A program made the translations under genes and the position numbers. The notes below the pieces were generated by a model. The model saw only the letters and a list, made by a program, of their open reading frames with translations. It did no database searches and was not told the origin of the DNA. Shown piece after piece: positions 27,298-37,283 of a stretch of DNA of 64,000 nucleotides. How positions within the stretch are numbered: position 1 is the first letter of the stretch; every line of letters starts with the position of its first letter. This stretch comes from Thiomicrorhabdus indica (lineage in GTDB: Bacteria > Pseudomonadota > Gammaproteobacteria > Thiomicrospirales > Thiomicrospiraceae), in the NCBI RefSeq assembly GCF_004293625.1, contig NZ_CP033040.1, positions 2,247,001 through 2,311,000 of the forward strand, in the 5' to 3' direction.

Positions 27298-29808
27298 TTA
27301 TTTAATTGTAATCGGCTCAAGCTGCCAAATATCTTCGTTGTAATCTCTCATGGTTCTATCTGTAGAAAACACACCACTTCTGGCTGTATTAATAATACTT
27401 TTCTTAACCCATAACTCTCTATTTTGATAGAGTTCAGCGGCCTGTTCTTGTGCTTCAACATAACTATCAAAGTCTGCAAGTGTGACCCAAGCATCACTGG
27501 GTGACGTCATTGAGTGAATCACATCATCAAAAATACCCGGTTCAAACTGGTTAAAATGCCCAACCGTTAAGAGCTTCATGACTTCTTGTAAATTGAAACT
27601 TCGATCAATATAGCTTTGAGGGTGATAATGATGACGTAGTTCTTCAACTTCGTGTGTTTGCAAGCCAAATAAAAAGAAGTTTTCCTCACCGACTGCTTCT
27701 CGAATTTCAACATTTGCGCCATCAAGCGTTCCAATCGTGAGAGCACCATTCATCATGAACTTCATATTTCCGGTGCCTGATGCTTCTTTACCAGCCGTCG
27801 AAATCTGCTCTGATAAATCTGCTGCTGGGCAAATTCTCTCCATGACCGAAACTCGATAATTGGGATAAAACACGACTTTTAATTTATCTCCAACTTGCGG
27901 GTCATTATTGACAACATGTGCAACATTATTAATCAATTTAATCAGCTTTTTAGCCATTGCATAACCCGGAGCGGCCTTACCACCGAACAATACCACACGA
28001 TTGGTCCAGTTTTCAGTGTCTCCACGCTTAATACGGGCGTAAAGATGGATTACATGCAGCACGTTTAGCAATTGGCGCTTATATTCATGGATGCGTTTCA
28101 CCTGAACATCAAACAGAGACTCAATGTTCAAAGTAACCCCTGTATGTTCAAAAACCGCATCCGCCAAAACTTGTTTATTATGCTGTTTTACCTGATACCA
28201 GAGATCACGAAATACTTTATCGCTCGCAAGTGATTCAATCTTAGAAAGTTCATCTAAATGGGTCACCCATTGTTCGCCAATCTTGCCATTCAGCAACTCT
28301 CGTAATTTTGGGTTACAACCTGCTAACCATCGTCTTTGAGTGACACCGTTTGTTTTATTATTGAACTTATGCGGCCACAATTGATAAAAATCATTAAACA
28401 AGCCCTCTTTCAACAAATTCGAATGCAACCGAGCAACGCCATTCACAGAATGACTTCCTACAATTGCTAAATACGCCATACAGACATTGTTATGTTCATC
28501 AATAATAGACATACGTCTTTGTCGCTCCAAATCCGCTGGCCAACGCATAGAAACTTCGGACAGGAAGCGCGAATTGATTTCATAAATAATTTCTAATGGT
28601 CTAGGCAGGAGCTTTTTAAATAATTCCACAGGCCACTTTTCAAGGGCTTCCGGCAATAATGTATGGTTAGTGTAGGCCATCATCTTTGTGGTCATACGCC
28701 ATGCATCATCCCACTGCATTTTTTCTCTGTCCACCAACAATCGCATAAGCTCTGCAACCGCTAAACTCGGATGGGTATCATTCAATTGAAAAGAATTAAA
28801 ATCAGCAAAGTCATCCAAACTTCCATACTGACGTTTCCACTGATCCAATACATCTTGCAATGAAGCAGAAACCAAGAAATATTGCTGCTTTAAACGTAAC
28901 TGCTTGCCATTTTCGCTGGAGTCGTTTGGATACAACACCATGGTGATGTTTTCTGCTTTCGCTTCTGCTTCAACCGCTTCCGTATAGGAACCTGCATTAA
29001 ACTCACTTAAATTAAATCCGTCGGGTGAAGAGGCAGACCAAAGTCGCAGAGTATTCACCGTATGATTTTTATACCCAGGAATGGGCACATCATAAGGCAC
29101 AGCCTCAATCATTTCGGCATCTTCCCAGTGCGCCGTCATTTGTTTGGTCTGCGGATCGACATACAAGCGTGACTCCCCTCCAAACTTCACAATTTGCGTA
29201 TATTCAGCACGCTGCACCTCCCAAGGATAAGGGCCTTCTCCTAACCAATGATCAGGTTTTTCAACTTGATATCCCTCTTCTATCACCTGCCGGAACATGC
29301 CATATTCATAGCGAAGTCCATACCCCATTACCGGAAGCTGTAGCGTTGCGCAGGAATCCATAAAACAGGCAGCCAACCGGCCTAAACCACCATTTCCAAG
29401 ACCTGCGTCTCGCTCTGCATGTTCAATTTCTTCTAGGTTCAACCCGAGCTCATACATCGCTTGCTGGGCTTCACTATCAATGCCCAGATTCAGTAGATTG
29501 TTCGTCAAAGAACGTCCAATCAAAAACTCCATAGATAAGTAATAGGCTTTTTTTGTTTTTTGACGATTGTAGGCTTCCCAAGTCTTTTTCCAATAAACCA
29601 TTAAGCGGTCGCGCGTGGCATAAGACAAAGCTTTAAAAATATAGTATTTTTCGGAGGATAGATTTCGACCAATGGTATGACACAGATATTTCAGGAAATC
29701 CTCTTCAATATCTTCCACTGACATTCCCGTTGTAGAAAGTAGTTTTTCCACCATGGCTTGGCGTTTTTGTAAAACTTCGCTTGGAAGGGCATTCTGCACC
29801 TGACTCAC
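27298..29808 (-). CDS. glgP: glycogen phosphorylase
   Basis: Releases glucose-1-phosphate from the non-reducing ends of glycogen. The 836-residue length is typical. The pyridoxal-phosphate lysine is in GTGNMKFMMNGALTIGTLDG (about residue 680), and GLGNGGLGRLAACFMDS near residue 135 is a family signature. The start is GTG with GGGAG upstream and overlaps the end of glgA by four bases, so translation is coupled. Last gene of the glycogen operon. Confidence 0.98.
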   Translation of the reverse strand: MSQVQNALPSEVLQKRQAMVEKLLSTTGMSVEDIEEDFLKYLCHTIGRNLSSEKYYIFKALSYATRDRLMVYWKKTWEAYNRQKTKKAYYLSMEFLIGRSLTNNLLNLGIDSEAQQAMYELGLNLEEIEHAERDAGLGNGGLGRLAACFMDSCATLQLPVMGYGLRYEYGMFRQVIEEGYQVEKPDHWLGEGPYPWEVQRAEYTQIVKFGGESRLYVDPQTKQMTAHWEDAEMIEAVPYDVPIPGYKNHTVNTLRLWSASSPDGFNLSEFNAGSYTEAVEAEAKAENITMVLYPNDSSENGKQLRLKQQYFLVSASLQDVLDQWKRQYGSLDDFADFNSFQLNDTHPSLAVAELMRLLVDREKMQWDDAWRMTTKMMAYTNHTLLPEALEKWPVELFKKLLPRPLEIIYEINSRFLSEVSMRWPADLERQRRMSIIDEHNNVCMAYLAIVGSHSVNGVARLHSNLLKEGLFNDFYQLWPHKFNNKTNGVTQRRWLAGCNPKLRELLNGKIGEQWVTHLDELSKIESLASDKVFRDLWYQVKQHNKQVLADAVFEHTGVTLNIESLFDVQVKRIHEYKRQLLNVLHVIHLYARIKRGDTENWTNRVVLFGGKAAPGYAMAKKLIKLINNVAHVVNNDPQVGDKLKVVFYPNYRVSVMERICPAADLSEQISTAGKEASGTGNMKFMMNGALTIGTLDGANVEIREAVGEENFFLFGLQTHEVEELRHHYHPQSYIDRSFNLQEVMKLLTVGHFNQFEPGIFDDVIHSMTSPSDAWVTLADFDSYVEAQEQAAELYQNRELWVKKSIINTARSGVFSTDRTMRDYNEDIWQLEPITIK

Positions 29809-33817: not shown

Positions 33818-35251
33818 TTATGACCGGCCGGTGGATTGAATTAATGTCGCGATTTTGTCTGCAAGTTCCTCGGTAAGCTGCCCTTCTTGCAATTGCCAAT
33901 TCCAGTTATTTTCAATAGTACCAGGAGTATTCATTCGTGATTCCGCCCCCAAAGCCAACCAATCCTGCATCGGTGCTATAAACCAATTGGGCACACTTTT
34001 CAGACCAGCCATAATCAATGGCCAAGGCATTTGCACATCCACACCCACTTGTTCCAATTCCTTGTGAGTACTTTCTAGCTGTGACCAAATCCAATTCTGA
34101 GCTCCAGGTTCTAAACTCTCAAACCACCCCATAGTCGTATCATTATCATGAGTTCCGCTGTAAACGACTGAATTTTCAACCTGTTCATCTAACGCATGCG
34201 GATTATCCGGCAAACCATTAAACCCAAATTGCAGAACCGCCATACCGGGTAAATCAAACGCTTCTTTTAATGCCACAACTTCCGGTGTAATAATTCCTAA
34301 ATCTTCGGCAACAAGAGGCATATTTGGCATGGATTCTTGCAAACTCTGTAGCAACCGTTCTCCGGGAACCTTCTCCCATACACCATTCATTGCAGTCTCT
34401 TCATCCGCTTGAATTTCCCAGCTTGCCTCAAGGCCGCGGAAATGGTCAATTCGTAACACATCCAGTTGTGATAATGCATGCTCTATGCGCAAATGCCACC
34501 AAGAGAAATTATCTTTCTCCATTTTTTCCCAGTCATAATGCGGATTCCCCCAACGTTGACCTGTTTCGGAAAAATAATCGGGGGGTACTCCTGCAACGAC
34601 GGTTGGATTTAAAGATTGGTCTAATTTGAAATTTTCAGGATTTGCCCACACATCCGCACTGTCATAAGCGATAAAAATTGGCATATCGCCAAATAGCGTA
34701 ATGGCTTTTTGGTTCGCATAAGTTTTTAATGCTTGCCACAGGTGTGACAACCAAAATTGTTGTTGCTTAATTTCCAATAACTGAATTTGATGCGCAGCCT
34801 TGAAAATCTCTAAAGCACTTGAATCCCGATACTTATATGCCTCTGGCCACTCGTTCCAAGCGCGATGTTCAAAATGTTCACGCAGCGCCATAAACAATGC
34901 AAAATCCTCCAACCAATGCGGAGGCGAATTTAAATAAGTTTCAAAAGCGTCTGTTGACCCTTCAAACTCTTTTTCAAAATCCGATTTCCAACCGGCCGGT
35001 AAAAATCTCGGGTTCATTGCAAACGCTGAAAGCGCGCTGTAAGGCGATAAATCATCATGTGGAGCATTGAGTGGAAGCATTTGCCAAATTTTCAGCTGAG
35101 CTCTTTCCATCCAATCAATAAAACGCCAAGCGTTTTGATCCAAACAACCGGCGGTTTGACTGCTTTCTTGCGGCAAAGAGGTGATATGCAAAACCACACC
35201 CGCTTGACGCTGCTTGTATCCAAAATTCTTTGAAGTCGGAGGATTTGGCAT
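33818..35251 (-). CDS. malQ: 4-alpha-glucanotransferase
   Basis: GH77 amylomaltase that disproportionates maltodextrins. The 477-residue length is the short bacterial form, about 200 residues shorter than E. coli MalQ. Catalytic motifs are LRIDHFRGLEASW, VAEDLGIITPEV and YSGTHDNDTTMGW. The palindrome at 33823 covers the last codons and a second copy lies at 34991. A 263-bp MITE-like element separates this gene from the upstream GH57 gene of the same operon. Confidence 0.95.
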   Translation of the reverse strand: MPNPPTSKNFGYKQRQAGVVLHITSLPQESSQTAGCLDQNAWRFIDWMERAQLKIWQMLPLNAPHDDLSPYSALSAFAMNPRFLPAGWKSDFEKEFEGSTDAFETYLNSPPHWLEDFALFMALREHFEHRAWNEWPEAYKYRDSSALEIFKAAHQIQLLEIKQQQFWLSHLWQALKTYANQKAITLFGDMPIFIAYDSADVWANPENFKLDQSLNPTVVAGVPPDYFSETGQRWGNPHYDWEKMEKDNFSWWHLRIEHALSQLDVLRIDHFRGLEASWEIQADEETAMNGVWEKVPGERLLQSLQESMPNMPLVAEDLGIITPEVVALKEAFDLPGMAVLQFGFNGLPDNPHALDEQVENSVVYSGTHDNDTTMGWFESLEPGAQNWIWSQLESTHKELEQVGVDVQMPWPLIMAGLKSVPNWFIAPMQDWLALGAESRMNTPGTIENNWNWQLQEGQLTEELADKIATLIQSTGRS

Positions 35252-35291
35252 TTTCTTAACCTTTTACCGTTATTAATTCAGGCGAATTTCA

Positions 35292-35562
35292 CTAAGGAAC
35301 CTCTGATTGAATCAAATTGAAATTCTGCGAGACTTCCAGCTCGCTTATTTTAGGCGTGGCGCGCCGACCTTAGTTATTCTAAGGTCAAGAGTCACAACGA
35401 CAAAGAAGTGGGCTGGAAGCCTCACCCACAAGGGCTTAGCCAAATCTGCCATCTCTGCGTTATGAAGTTTTGCAAGGTCTAGACATTGCTGCAACTTCAC
35501 GCCTTAACCTGACAAATTTGGCGTTGCCAGAAATTAATTTGATTCAATCAAAGGTTCCCTAA
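35292..35562. mobile_element. 263-bp MITE-like element flanked by CTAA duplications
   Basis: Non-coding element 35296-35558. The left end GGAACCTCTGATTGAATCAA and the complement of the right end GGAACCTTTGATTGAATCAA match at 19 of 20 bases, and partial similarity continues to about 32 bp. Direct CTAA repeats (35292-35295 and 35559-35562) flank it, fitting the YTAR target of the IS5 group of insertion sequences. An internal 8-bp hairpin GACCTTAG / CTAAGGTC lies at 35366-35386. It has no transposase, so it would have been moved in trans. The right-hand duplication supplies the stop codon of the GH57 gene. This element accounts for the whole gap between malQ and the GH57 gene. Confidence 0.8.
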
Positions 35563-37283
35563 GCATTTCGACGCATAGTGCCACCGTTTTCAACCCCATG
35601 ACCACCATGAGAAATCGGTTGATTCAAAGCCTCGGGAATTTCTACTTCAAGCAGTTGATAGAGTTTTTTAAGATGTGAACGATACAGGTGATCAAAGTCT
35701 TTAACACTTTGAGCATTGTTATAATCCCCAAACCACCAGAACCAATCCGAACCTTCACAAATCGCTAATTGATCAATAATCGCCTGCGACTTTTCTTCAG
35801 TAAATGTTTGCGTTGCCATAACTTTATCGAAGCTTTCTTTTGCTGCAACCAGCAAATCCCAGCCAAGATTTTTGTCTTTATCGCCCATCCAAGTTGAGAA
35901 AGAACCATAGACCCAACTACCGGCTTTTAACATGGGAAGCTCTCGCACTTTGCAACCATCCTCAATGGCCTGACTAAAGGTCGTCATTTCAATTCTTGGA
36001 TGGTCACTTAATACATCATAAAAAGCCATTAAGAAATGATAAGCATTATCTGGATAGTATTCCCACGCATTTTCCCCGTCCAGAATCACACTTACGACAT
36101 GCTGGTCAGCCTCTTCTCCCAAAAAGTTAGCAATATTCGTCATATTTTGAGCAAAGTTATTCGCCGCATCTTCGGCACGCCAGTCCTTGTATTGGAAACC
36201 GATTAAATCCGACATACCATCATCTCTAAAGAACAGTTTTGCATGAGCATCTTTATGCTTAAGAGGAGAATACAAAGCCTTTTTACTGTTAATCAAATGC
36301 GGATTAATTTGCGATGCTTCACATGAATGCCGCCAAACACCTTCACCGGAAGCCGTCCATTGCAAGTTATAATCATCTAACAGCTTCACAGCTTCAGAAC
36401 TCAAAGCCCCTTCCGATAACCACACGCCTTTGGACTTTTGACCAAAATAATGCTCAAAAACTTCTTGGCCTTTTTCCAAGTGCCAACGAGCACGCTCCTC
36501 ACCACCTGGGTAGGCAGGCGCTTGTGGCAAAGGGGCATTTGGCGTGGATTCATGCAAACTATTAAAGTCCAACATGAGCGGTACAATCGGGTGCCCATAA
36601 GGACTCATAGAAAGCTCAATTTGGCCACGATCCAATAACGCTTTGTAACGAGGAATAATATTACGAATCGCATCAAACAAAATTTCCATAACAAGACGGC
36701 GATCTTTCTTAGAAAAGTTTTTCTTTTTCTGCATTAACAATGTAATTCGGTGATCATCACGGCGTAAGCTGATTCCCATCCAAGCAAGGTGATACCACAT
36801 CAACAAATCAATGAAGAACTGTTCGCTTAAATACGACAATTGAACACAATGCGATACATCGTTAACCAAATCACAGTTTTGCAGCAGTTCGACCATTTCA
36901 TGAAAATACGGTAAGGCATGAATAATGGTTGGAGCATGCGCTTTTTGACATAGAATCGCAATTTCTTGGCGCTGAGACAGCTGGCCGGAAATCGGCTCAA
37001 CGCCAGCGAGTAAGTTAAGCAAACGGTCTTGCATTGGCTGACCATTGTCCAACCACTCCTCAATCTGCTGAGCGTAGTCATCCAACTGTTCCAATAACAC
37101 AGGGGCAAAATTGACAACCACTTTTGCCTCGGGACATTTTTCCAAATGCCAAACCATATCGGTGTAATCTTTTATGGCATGCAAATACACCCAAGGAAGG
37201 TGATATTCACCATCTTCACCATCACGATAATGTGGTTGATGCATGTGCCAACAGACCACTAACTTAACTTTTTTCTCACTCAT
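35559..37283 (-). CDS. glycoside hydrolase family 57 protein
   Basis: A 574-residue GH57-type alpha-glucan-active enzyme. It begins with the family motif VVCWHMHQPHYRD and has the nucleophile region GVWLSEGALS (about residue 290) and acid region VSVILDGENAWEYYP (about 405). GH57 members include alpha-amylases, amylopullulanases, 4-alpha-glucanotransferases and branching enzymes, and the substrate cannot be settled from sequence here. It lies between glgC and malQ in one operon, so it very likely acts on glycogen or maltodextrin. A MITE inserted exactly at its stop codon, recreating TAG. Confidence 0.88.
   Translation of the reverse strand: MSEKKVKLVVCWHMHQPHYRDGEDGEYHLPWVYLHAIKDYTDMVWHLEKCPEAKVVVNFAPVLLEQLDDYAQQIEEWLDNGQPMQDRLLNLLAGVEPISGQLSQRQEIAILCQKAHAPTIIHALPYFHEMVELLQNCDLVNDVSHCVQLSYLSEQFFIDLLMWYHLAWMGISLRRDDHRITLLMQKKKNFSKKDRRLVMEILFDAIRNIIPRYKALLDRGQIELSMSPYGHPIVPLMLDFNSLHESTPNAPLPQAPAYPGGEERARWHLEKGQEVFEHYFGQKSKGVWLSEGALSSEAVKLLDDYNLQWTASGEGVWRHSCEASQINPHLINSKKALYSPLKHKDAHAKLFFRDDGMSDLIGFQYKDWRAEDAANNFAQNMTNIANFLGEEADQHVVSVILDGENAWEYYPDNAYHFLMAFYDVLSDHPRIEMTTFSQAIEDGCKVRELPMLKAGSWVYGSFSTWMGDKDKNLGWDLLVAAKESFDKVMATQTFTEEKSQAIIDQLAICEGSDWFWWFGDYNNAQSVKDFDHLYRSHLKKLYQLLEVEIPEALNQPISHGGHGVENGGTMRRNA

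Follow-up and report, generated by a model that had tools for sequence, protein, structure and literature searches.

A miniature, probably IS5-type element in the glycogen operon of Thiomicrorhabdus indica encloses a covarying two-hairpin core found behind dissimilar ends

In the glycogen operon of Thiomicrorhabdus indica a short stretch of non-coding DNA lies between a GH57 gene and malQ, which raises the question of what was inserted there and what its interior is. The window, that is the whole stretch of 64,000 nucleotides analysed here (contig NZ_CP033040.1, positions 2,247,001 to 2,311,000), had been read in a preliminary description as harboring at this place a complete, non-coding MITE of 263 bp. 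The element proper occupies positions 35296-35558, with CTAA on either side (35292-35295 and 35559-35562), and is located between the GH57 gene and malQ in a run with glgB, glgA and glgC. The features of the locus are the following:

35292-35295, unstranded: target-site duplication CTAA, malQ side
35296-35321, + strand: terminal inverted repeat, GGAACCTCTGATTGAATC type
35323-35532, + strand: structured core of 210 nt (model R1: + strand 226 bits, - strand 48 bits)
35327-35425, + strand: hairpin A of the core, limits taken from alignment A1, supported by covariation
35433-35528, + strand: hairpin B of the core, apical GTCTAGAC, limits taken from alignment A1, supported by covariation
35533-35558, - strand: terminal inverted repeat, second end
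35559-35562, unstranded: target-site duplication CTAA, GH57 side, including the GH57 stop TAG (35559-35561, - strand)
35559-37283, - strand: GH57 gene, upstream of the insertion (PF03065, E 1.7e-49)
33818-35251, - strand: malQ, downstream of the insertion (TIGR00217 / PF02446)
same run: glgB, glgA and glgC (NCBIfam matches)
ORF 27298-29808: putative glgP

The ends, the duplications, the copies and the empty site confirm that the element is a complete MITE inside the glycogen operon. The near-perfect terminal repeats that had been claimed correspond to arms at 35293-35318 and 35536-35561 which are 92% complementary over 26 nt, the claimed 4-bp direct repeats of the YTAR type are present as CTAA/CTAA, and the position between GH57 and malQ holds, with both genes confirmed by Pfam and malQ, glgB, glgA and glgC by NCBIfam. 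The 263 bp leave room for at most 87 codons; the element is shorter than 500 bp and carries no transposase gene. The preliminary description had the target duplication recreate the stop codon of the GH57 gene; since TAG lies inside the duplicated tetranucleotide CTAA, however, the stop was already part of the target and was preserved by the insertion. A search for malQ was positive in 24 of the 32 genus genomes (this one counted), and GH57 lies upstream of it in 23 of 23 relatives. The empty site that was to be sought in relatives is found there, as none of the 23 genomes with a GH57-malQ junction has the element ends within 600 bp upstream of malQ. The gap between the two genes is at most 88 bp in 19 of these relatives and longer in four with other sequence, one of which is masked. 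The insertion may, as the preliminary description suggested, affect expression of the downstream malQ-glgB-glgA-glgP part. In positions 35200-35650 a scan found a single promoter-like match on the operon strand and, on the opposite strand, two terminator-like sites, where shuffled sequences lead one to expect 0.4 of each.

Further copies, which were likewise to be looked for, are dispersed through the 2.83-Mb genome. A DNA search yielded seven near-complete ones including the present element (L001-L007), two of which measure 317 and 348 bp owing to small inserts and an internal duplication, and matches occur in 15 of the 32 genus genomes, this one counted. Searched with at most 3 mismatches, the end sequence occurs three times in the window as compared to 0.23 expected, two of these being the ends of the element itself, and 82 times (42+40) in the genome as compared to 4 (3+1) for a reversed control pattern; it is not due to chance. 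Identical 4-bp flanks surround seven of ten interior-bearing elements, where permutation gives an expectation of 1.5, and among these ten copies six left and seven right flanks fit YTAR, a target that is a feature of IS5 elements. A short palindrome (ACGAAGAACTCGGCGAAGAGCCGAGAA or a variant of it) is inserted in several copies in this genome (L013, L014, L015, L016 and L057) and looks like a second small repeat nested in the element, and CCGGCCGGTAA palindromes recur near solo ends or single-ended relics of the element (L032, L054 and L057). In the L014 copy ~58 bp of hairpin A are repeated in tandem, and copies in two genomes (L042 and L070) have an extra insert of 38 to 39 bp in the same hairpin. 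One-sided remnants that have the right-hand kind of end alone and part of the interior, probably truncated, lie in G000:C1:71500-77000 (L057) and G000:C1:135000-140500 (L058).

Profile searches for DUF772 (PF05598), DDE_Tnp_1 (PF01609) and the HUH transposase domain Y1_Tnp found no match in this genome, and because neither an IS5-type nor an HUH transposase domain was found the window copy is probably immobile now. An IS5-group element with such ends had been proposed for search; a relic of this kind does exist, only as a decayed remnant of 528 bp in this genome (G000:C1:178975-179502). Its ends are of the window type and diverged, each with 3 of 17 positions changed, a mismatch level at which the reversed control pattern also finds 4 genomic places. 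Between them, a disrupted reading frame retains a piece of an IS5 transposase (tblastn, 14 of 26 residues, E 5e-4), which gives a short match to the IS5 profile NF033581 of NCBIfam (E 1.2e-4, 21.6 bits as compared to a curated cut-off of 140) and none to Pfam. The relative G008 harbors an apparently intact IS5 element of ~1.18 kb between CTAA and CTAG, the transposase frame of which is open (DUF772 and DDE_Tnp_1). At its left end, GGAAACACAGAACAAGTCC, it agrees with the right ends of the four readable core elements of G008 at 18 of 19 bases in three cases and at 16 in the fourth; three left ends of these core elements could be read and agree with it at 12 to 16 of 19 bases. The end type concerned is another than that of the window element. 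These matches support movement in trans by IS5-type enzymes within G008; an IS5-type enzyme acting on ends like those of the window element is putative. Across the genus there is no association between DUF772 and the core, the latter being present in 2 of 5 DUF772-positive and 19 of 27 DUF772-negative genomes. By the features tested (terminal repeats, CTAA duplication, dispersed copies, empty sites and no gene) the window element is an IS5-type MITE, with mobilisation by IS5 putative and no intact partner element found in this genome, and the earlier MITE interpretation is supported. A putative transposase acting in trans would have bound the 26-bp ends and inserted the element at a CTAA overlapping the GH57 stop, as the observed ends, duplication and empty site suggest. 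The same enzyme appears since to have decayed in this genome, which gives no match to DUF772 or DDE_Tnp_1 and keeps a relic with diverged ends of the window kind.

MITE interiors are usually regarded as transposase debris. What the preliminary description missed is that the interior of this element is a structured core that recurs across the class with other ends. An RNA fold of either strand of the element is far more stable than folds of shuffled sequences (z -9.4 and -10.7), and the inner 210 nt align almost without gaps across the genus in A1, an alignment of 21 sequences. These were taken from 40 elements, of which 25 have a core of 195-225 nt; the near-duplicates L083, L085, L086 and L089 were omitted, as were 15 others which are too long, too short or without anchors. 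RNAalifold places 63 pairs in A1, of which 37 have changes on both sides; 95.8% of the cells are paired as compared to 31-43% with slid partners, and the 162 double-change cells (40.6 in shuffled alignments) were reached by none of 500 shuffles. A covariance model, R1, was built from 21 sequences, the window copy included. In A3, which comprises 28 class sequences outside model training (the best locus from each of 28 genomes, mean pairwise identity 56%), 58 of the 63 pairs show double changes. The proportion of paired cells in A3, 94.7% as compared to 30-40% with slid partners, is inflated by fitting to the model structure and by the use of best-scoring loci only, so that the covariation, 0.834 as compared to 0.206 in shuffles, is the stronger figure. 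A3 contains 28 of 29 class loci; the omitted one, L172, fits almost equally on the opposite strand. The interior is a two-hairpin core with strong compensatory change.

The covariance model finds the core in 35 of 62 genomes of the family, covering 6 of 7 genera, and in a survey of the class, where six candidates were scored per genome, in 85 of 369 genomes and 67 of 271 genera, this genome counted. The present genome has 24 model matches, nine of which were located and inspected. A class-wide motif of the core occurs in at least 120 stretches, and of the 80 listed 77 are also recognised by the model at E <= 0.001, in some cases partially; the record titles among the matches listed name Pseudomonas, Stutzerimonas, Aeromonas, Acinetobacter, Nitrosomonas and Thiotrichaceae, besides others. 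The three listed stretches without a model match are one from Pseudomonas (L195) and two in records titled outside Proteobacteria (L193 and L204). A plasmid search with a Pseudomonas copy matched four records, the same search with the window element and with L188 gave no match, and neither did a search of E. coli with an Aeromonas copy.

The ends around this core were compared in 92 elements, a hand selection of forward matches from which partial matches and close repeats were omitted and which includes 11 of the 77 model-matching class-motif loci. Single linkage of the outer 18 nt of the 89 elements with clear inverted arms gave clusters of 37, 15, 11, 6, 4 and 3 members and 13 singletons, two of which (L121 and L048) plainly belong to the second cluster. 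In the order listed, the six end types are the GGAACCTCTGA type, which lumps TAGTCGACTCTGAATAAC too, GGGCACCTCGA, AGTRCTCC, TAGGGTCTGTTGACG, TAGTGTAGTGCGTC and TTACTAAGACAAACG. In none of the 15 cluster pairs does the best inter-cluster match fall outside what 50 shuffles yield; pairs 3-5 and 3-6 equal the shuffled maximum and pair 1-2 is slightly above the shuffled mean. Some end clusters, 3-5 and 3-6 among them, may thus be related, and at least four end types are therefore clearly dissimilar. The present genome itself carries the core with two end forms, the second being represented by L144 and L145 with TAGTCGAC ends. Since one core stands behind dissimilar ends across Gammaproteobacteria, we infer that it changed ends at least a few times, either by exchange of the ends or by capture of the core. 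Candidate routes are recombination, capture into new ends and insertion into palindromes. The reading that we prefer, with a probability of about 0.7, is that the element is a non-autonomous transposon of the IS5 type that was moved in trans and whose interior is a conserved structured module carried behind dissimilar ends.

An alternative is that the element is an ordinary MITE, with an interior that consists of the two subterminal parts of a deleted insertion sequence, stems that are kept matched by arm-to-arm correction at replication, and no function beyond shared descent. MITEs are commonly regarded as deletion products of insertion sequences, as stated in PMC3189936, and two strand tests agree with neutral arm-to-arm correction. 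For pairs that are at least 60% Watson-Crick the counts are G-U 23 and A-C 24, as such correction predicts, and for stems of Watson-Crick pairs only, over the 92 elements, G-U 67 and A-C 85. By region, the G-U:A-C counts in the latter test are 24:23 in hairpin A, 3:25 in hairpin B, where much of the A-C excess is near one recurrent C-A position, and 35:30 in the ends. We do not rely on this test, the 16S control of which has only four informative events and shows G-U 1 and A-C 3 on the rRNA strand, without the expected G-U excess. (Besides two full-length 16S rRNA copies, partial matches are present at G000:C1:2185063-2185969.) When every RNAalifold pair is counted, together with single mismatches within helices, G-U in contrast outnumbers A-C on the plus strand by 64 to 24. 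Two further findings speak against ordinary debris: in A3, at a mean pairwise identity of 56%, conservation is higher in unpaired than in paired columns (mean 1.03 and 0.82 bits, one-sided p 0.005), and the core stands behind six end clusters, which one deleted insertion sequence cannot yield. On balance we regard this explanation as unlikely, though it deserves to be weighed seriously.

The same ends also occur without any interior. Among the loci fetched, at least 15 are solo palindromes of exactly 27 bp, GGAACCTCT-GATTSAATC-AGAGGTTCC with some changes, in which two ends are fused at a common 9-mer; two further solo palindromes measure 38 and 41 bp, and shortened derivatives of the element measure 202, 153 and 77 bp. 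Six of 17 solo palindromes have identical 4-bp flanks as compared to 2.7 expected (p 0.03), and the 77-bp derivative has no matching flanks (AAGG/ATAG). For the first end type the series of lengths, 263, 202, 153, 77, 41 and 27, suggests progressive internal deletion. In view of this series and of the flanks, the 27-bp palindromes were probably left by deletion between two GATTSAATC stretches, which form direct repeats within the two ends (9+9+9 = 27). A search of the 32 genus genomes with at most 3 mismatches found no solo palindrome of the form predicted for the second end type, so that the deletion model is not general and is held for the first end type only. Conversely, the core might itself be the mobile unit, inserting at the centre of existing palindromes, in which case the 27-bp forms would be empty targets rather than scars. 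The solo palindromes are indeed numerous, and 89 of the 92 elements have clear inverted arms, the two ends matching one another whatever their type. We nevertheless consider this very unlikely, as the arms of full elements are longer than those of the solos, intermediate lengths exist, the duplications flank the whole unit, and no solo palindrome of the second end type was found in the 32 genus genomes.

The two hairpins of the module appear to be related to each other. The model recognises many elements on both strands, and in 7 of 11 elements tested, the window copy not among them, hairpin A is more similar to the reverse-complemented hairpin B than in any of 200 shuffles. In many relatives, then, the interior would consist of inverted copies of one unit, with unpaired motifs that are fixed and stems that vary with compensation. 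Elements L239 and L227, as read, have a single module with the same kinds of ends, and the Pseudomonas versions L200, L238 and L250 look longer, with a possible third hairpin past module B. The two apical loops read as complementary in some copies from the class (L188) and are candidates there for a kissing interaction, which is not seen in the window copy. Counted by columns, G-U exceeds A-C in 17 columns of hairpin A and the reverse holds in 4 in A3 (11 and 5 in A1), whereas in hairpin B the corresponding numbers are 3 and 10 in A3 and 1 and 8 in A1. The strand signal of hairpin A thus leans with the model and that of hairpin B, by columns, against it, as would be the case if a single hairpin unit occurred in two oppositely oriented copies, each folding on one strand. 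Both RNA and single-stranded DNA are compatible with this signal. The other strand tests are neutral or favor plus-strand G-U, so that the folded form may be either RNA or DNA.

That the core is a functional RNA, either a small RNA or an element that stabilises transcripts or acts in antitermination, under selection by the host, would account for the strong covariation, the fixed unpaired motifs and a column signal that looks as if one strand per module folds. Against it, Rfam gave for the window element only a chance-level match to SNORD60 (E 4.6, 15.6 bits as compared to 42) and for 14 loci no match at E <= 0.1, and presence in the family is patchy. The elements have no clear orientation to genes: of 30 loci, 11 are divergent, 10 and 6 co-directional in the two senses and 3 convergent, in a count that is unreliable since naive ORFs run to the element edge. 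By cells, moreover, hairpin B in A3 has G-U 31 and A-C 22, due to one column with 27, and G-T pairs are tolerated in folded DNA too. A host RNA of this kind is therefore quite improbable. The inverted hairpins and the strand signal that flips between them also recall a REPIN-like element moved by an HUH (Y1) transposase that acts on single-strand hairpins. Such a mechanism is disfavored and has, in our estimate, hardly any chance of being correct: the present genome has no Y1_Tnp match, over the family the domain occurs in 22 of 35 genomes with the core and 13 of 27 others (Fisher p 0.31), and the duplications together with the long ends suggest DDE enzymes.

Returning to the preferred reading of a structured module carried by IS5-type elements, its use would most likely be to the element itself, a folded single strand or cruciform perhaps aiding transposition or tolerance in transcribed regions. 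Our broader proposal, that the module represents a Gammaproteobacteria-wide family which travels as a passenger in miniature transposons and repeatedly swaps ends, so that one core is served by several unrelated transposases, is tentative and falls a little short of even odds. If the fold and the unpaired motifs are indeed kept class-wide while the ends are replaced, small transposons carry selected structure. Scattered repeat families could then be united under one model, and the element would offer a concrete model for testing the part of hairpin cores in transposition or in the tolerance of insertions inside operons.

REPINs consist of two inverted hairpins that form a mobile unit, a layout which the present core shares. 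Unlike REPINs, it has no association with a Y1 transposase over the 62 genomes and possesses transposon ends and 4-bp duplications; an identity with REPINs was rejected on the companion genes, as no Y1/RAYT match was found here. In the literature searched, as far as its text was available (including PMC5896051, PMC10969869, PMC2718517, PMC4853749 and PMC3189936), there is no description of a covarying core shared across dissimilar ends. Five strings taken from the sequences of the element and of its relatives were looked for in print: three gave no match in the literature covered by the search, and one or both of the two class-motif strings occur in five papers titled on other subjects. The R0 and R2 intergenic repeats of Pseudomonas fluorescens, as described in PMC2718517, are similar in that their inverted repeats equal those of insertion sequences in the same strain; by their description they differ in length, with 89 and 110 bp. 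QMITE1 and QMITE2 of Coxiella burnetii are palindromic MITEs of ~150-400 bp with stable transcript folds and ~50 copies each, and the consulted sections of PMC5896051 contain no analysis of compensatory changes for them; as described there, QMITE1 was found in no other genome, whereas the present core is class-wide. MITEPsy1, an IS5-family MITE of 100 nt (marked 'IS5?' in Table 1 of PMC3189936), is like the window element short, non-coding, bounded by terminal repeats and thought to be mobilised in trans; going by that description, the window element is set apart by its interior, a conserved module that covaries and also occurs behind ends of other types.
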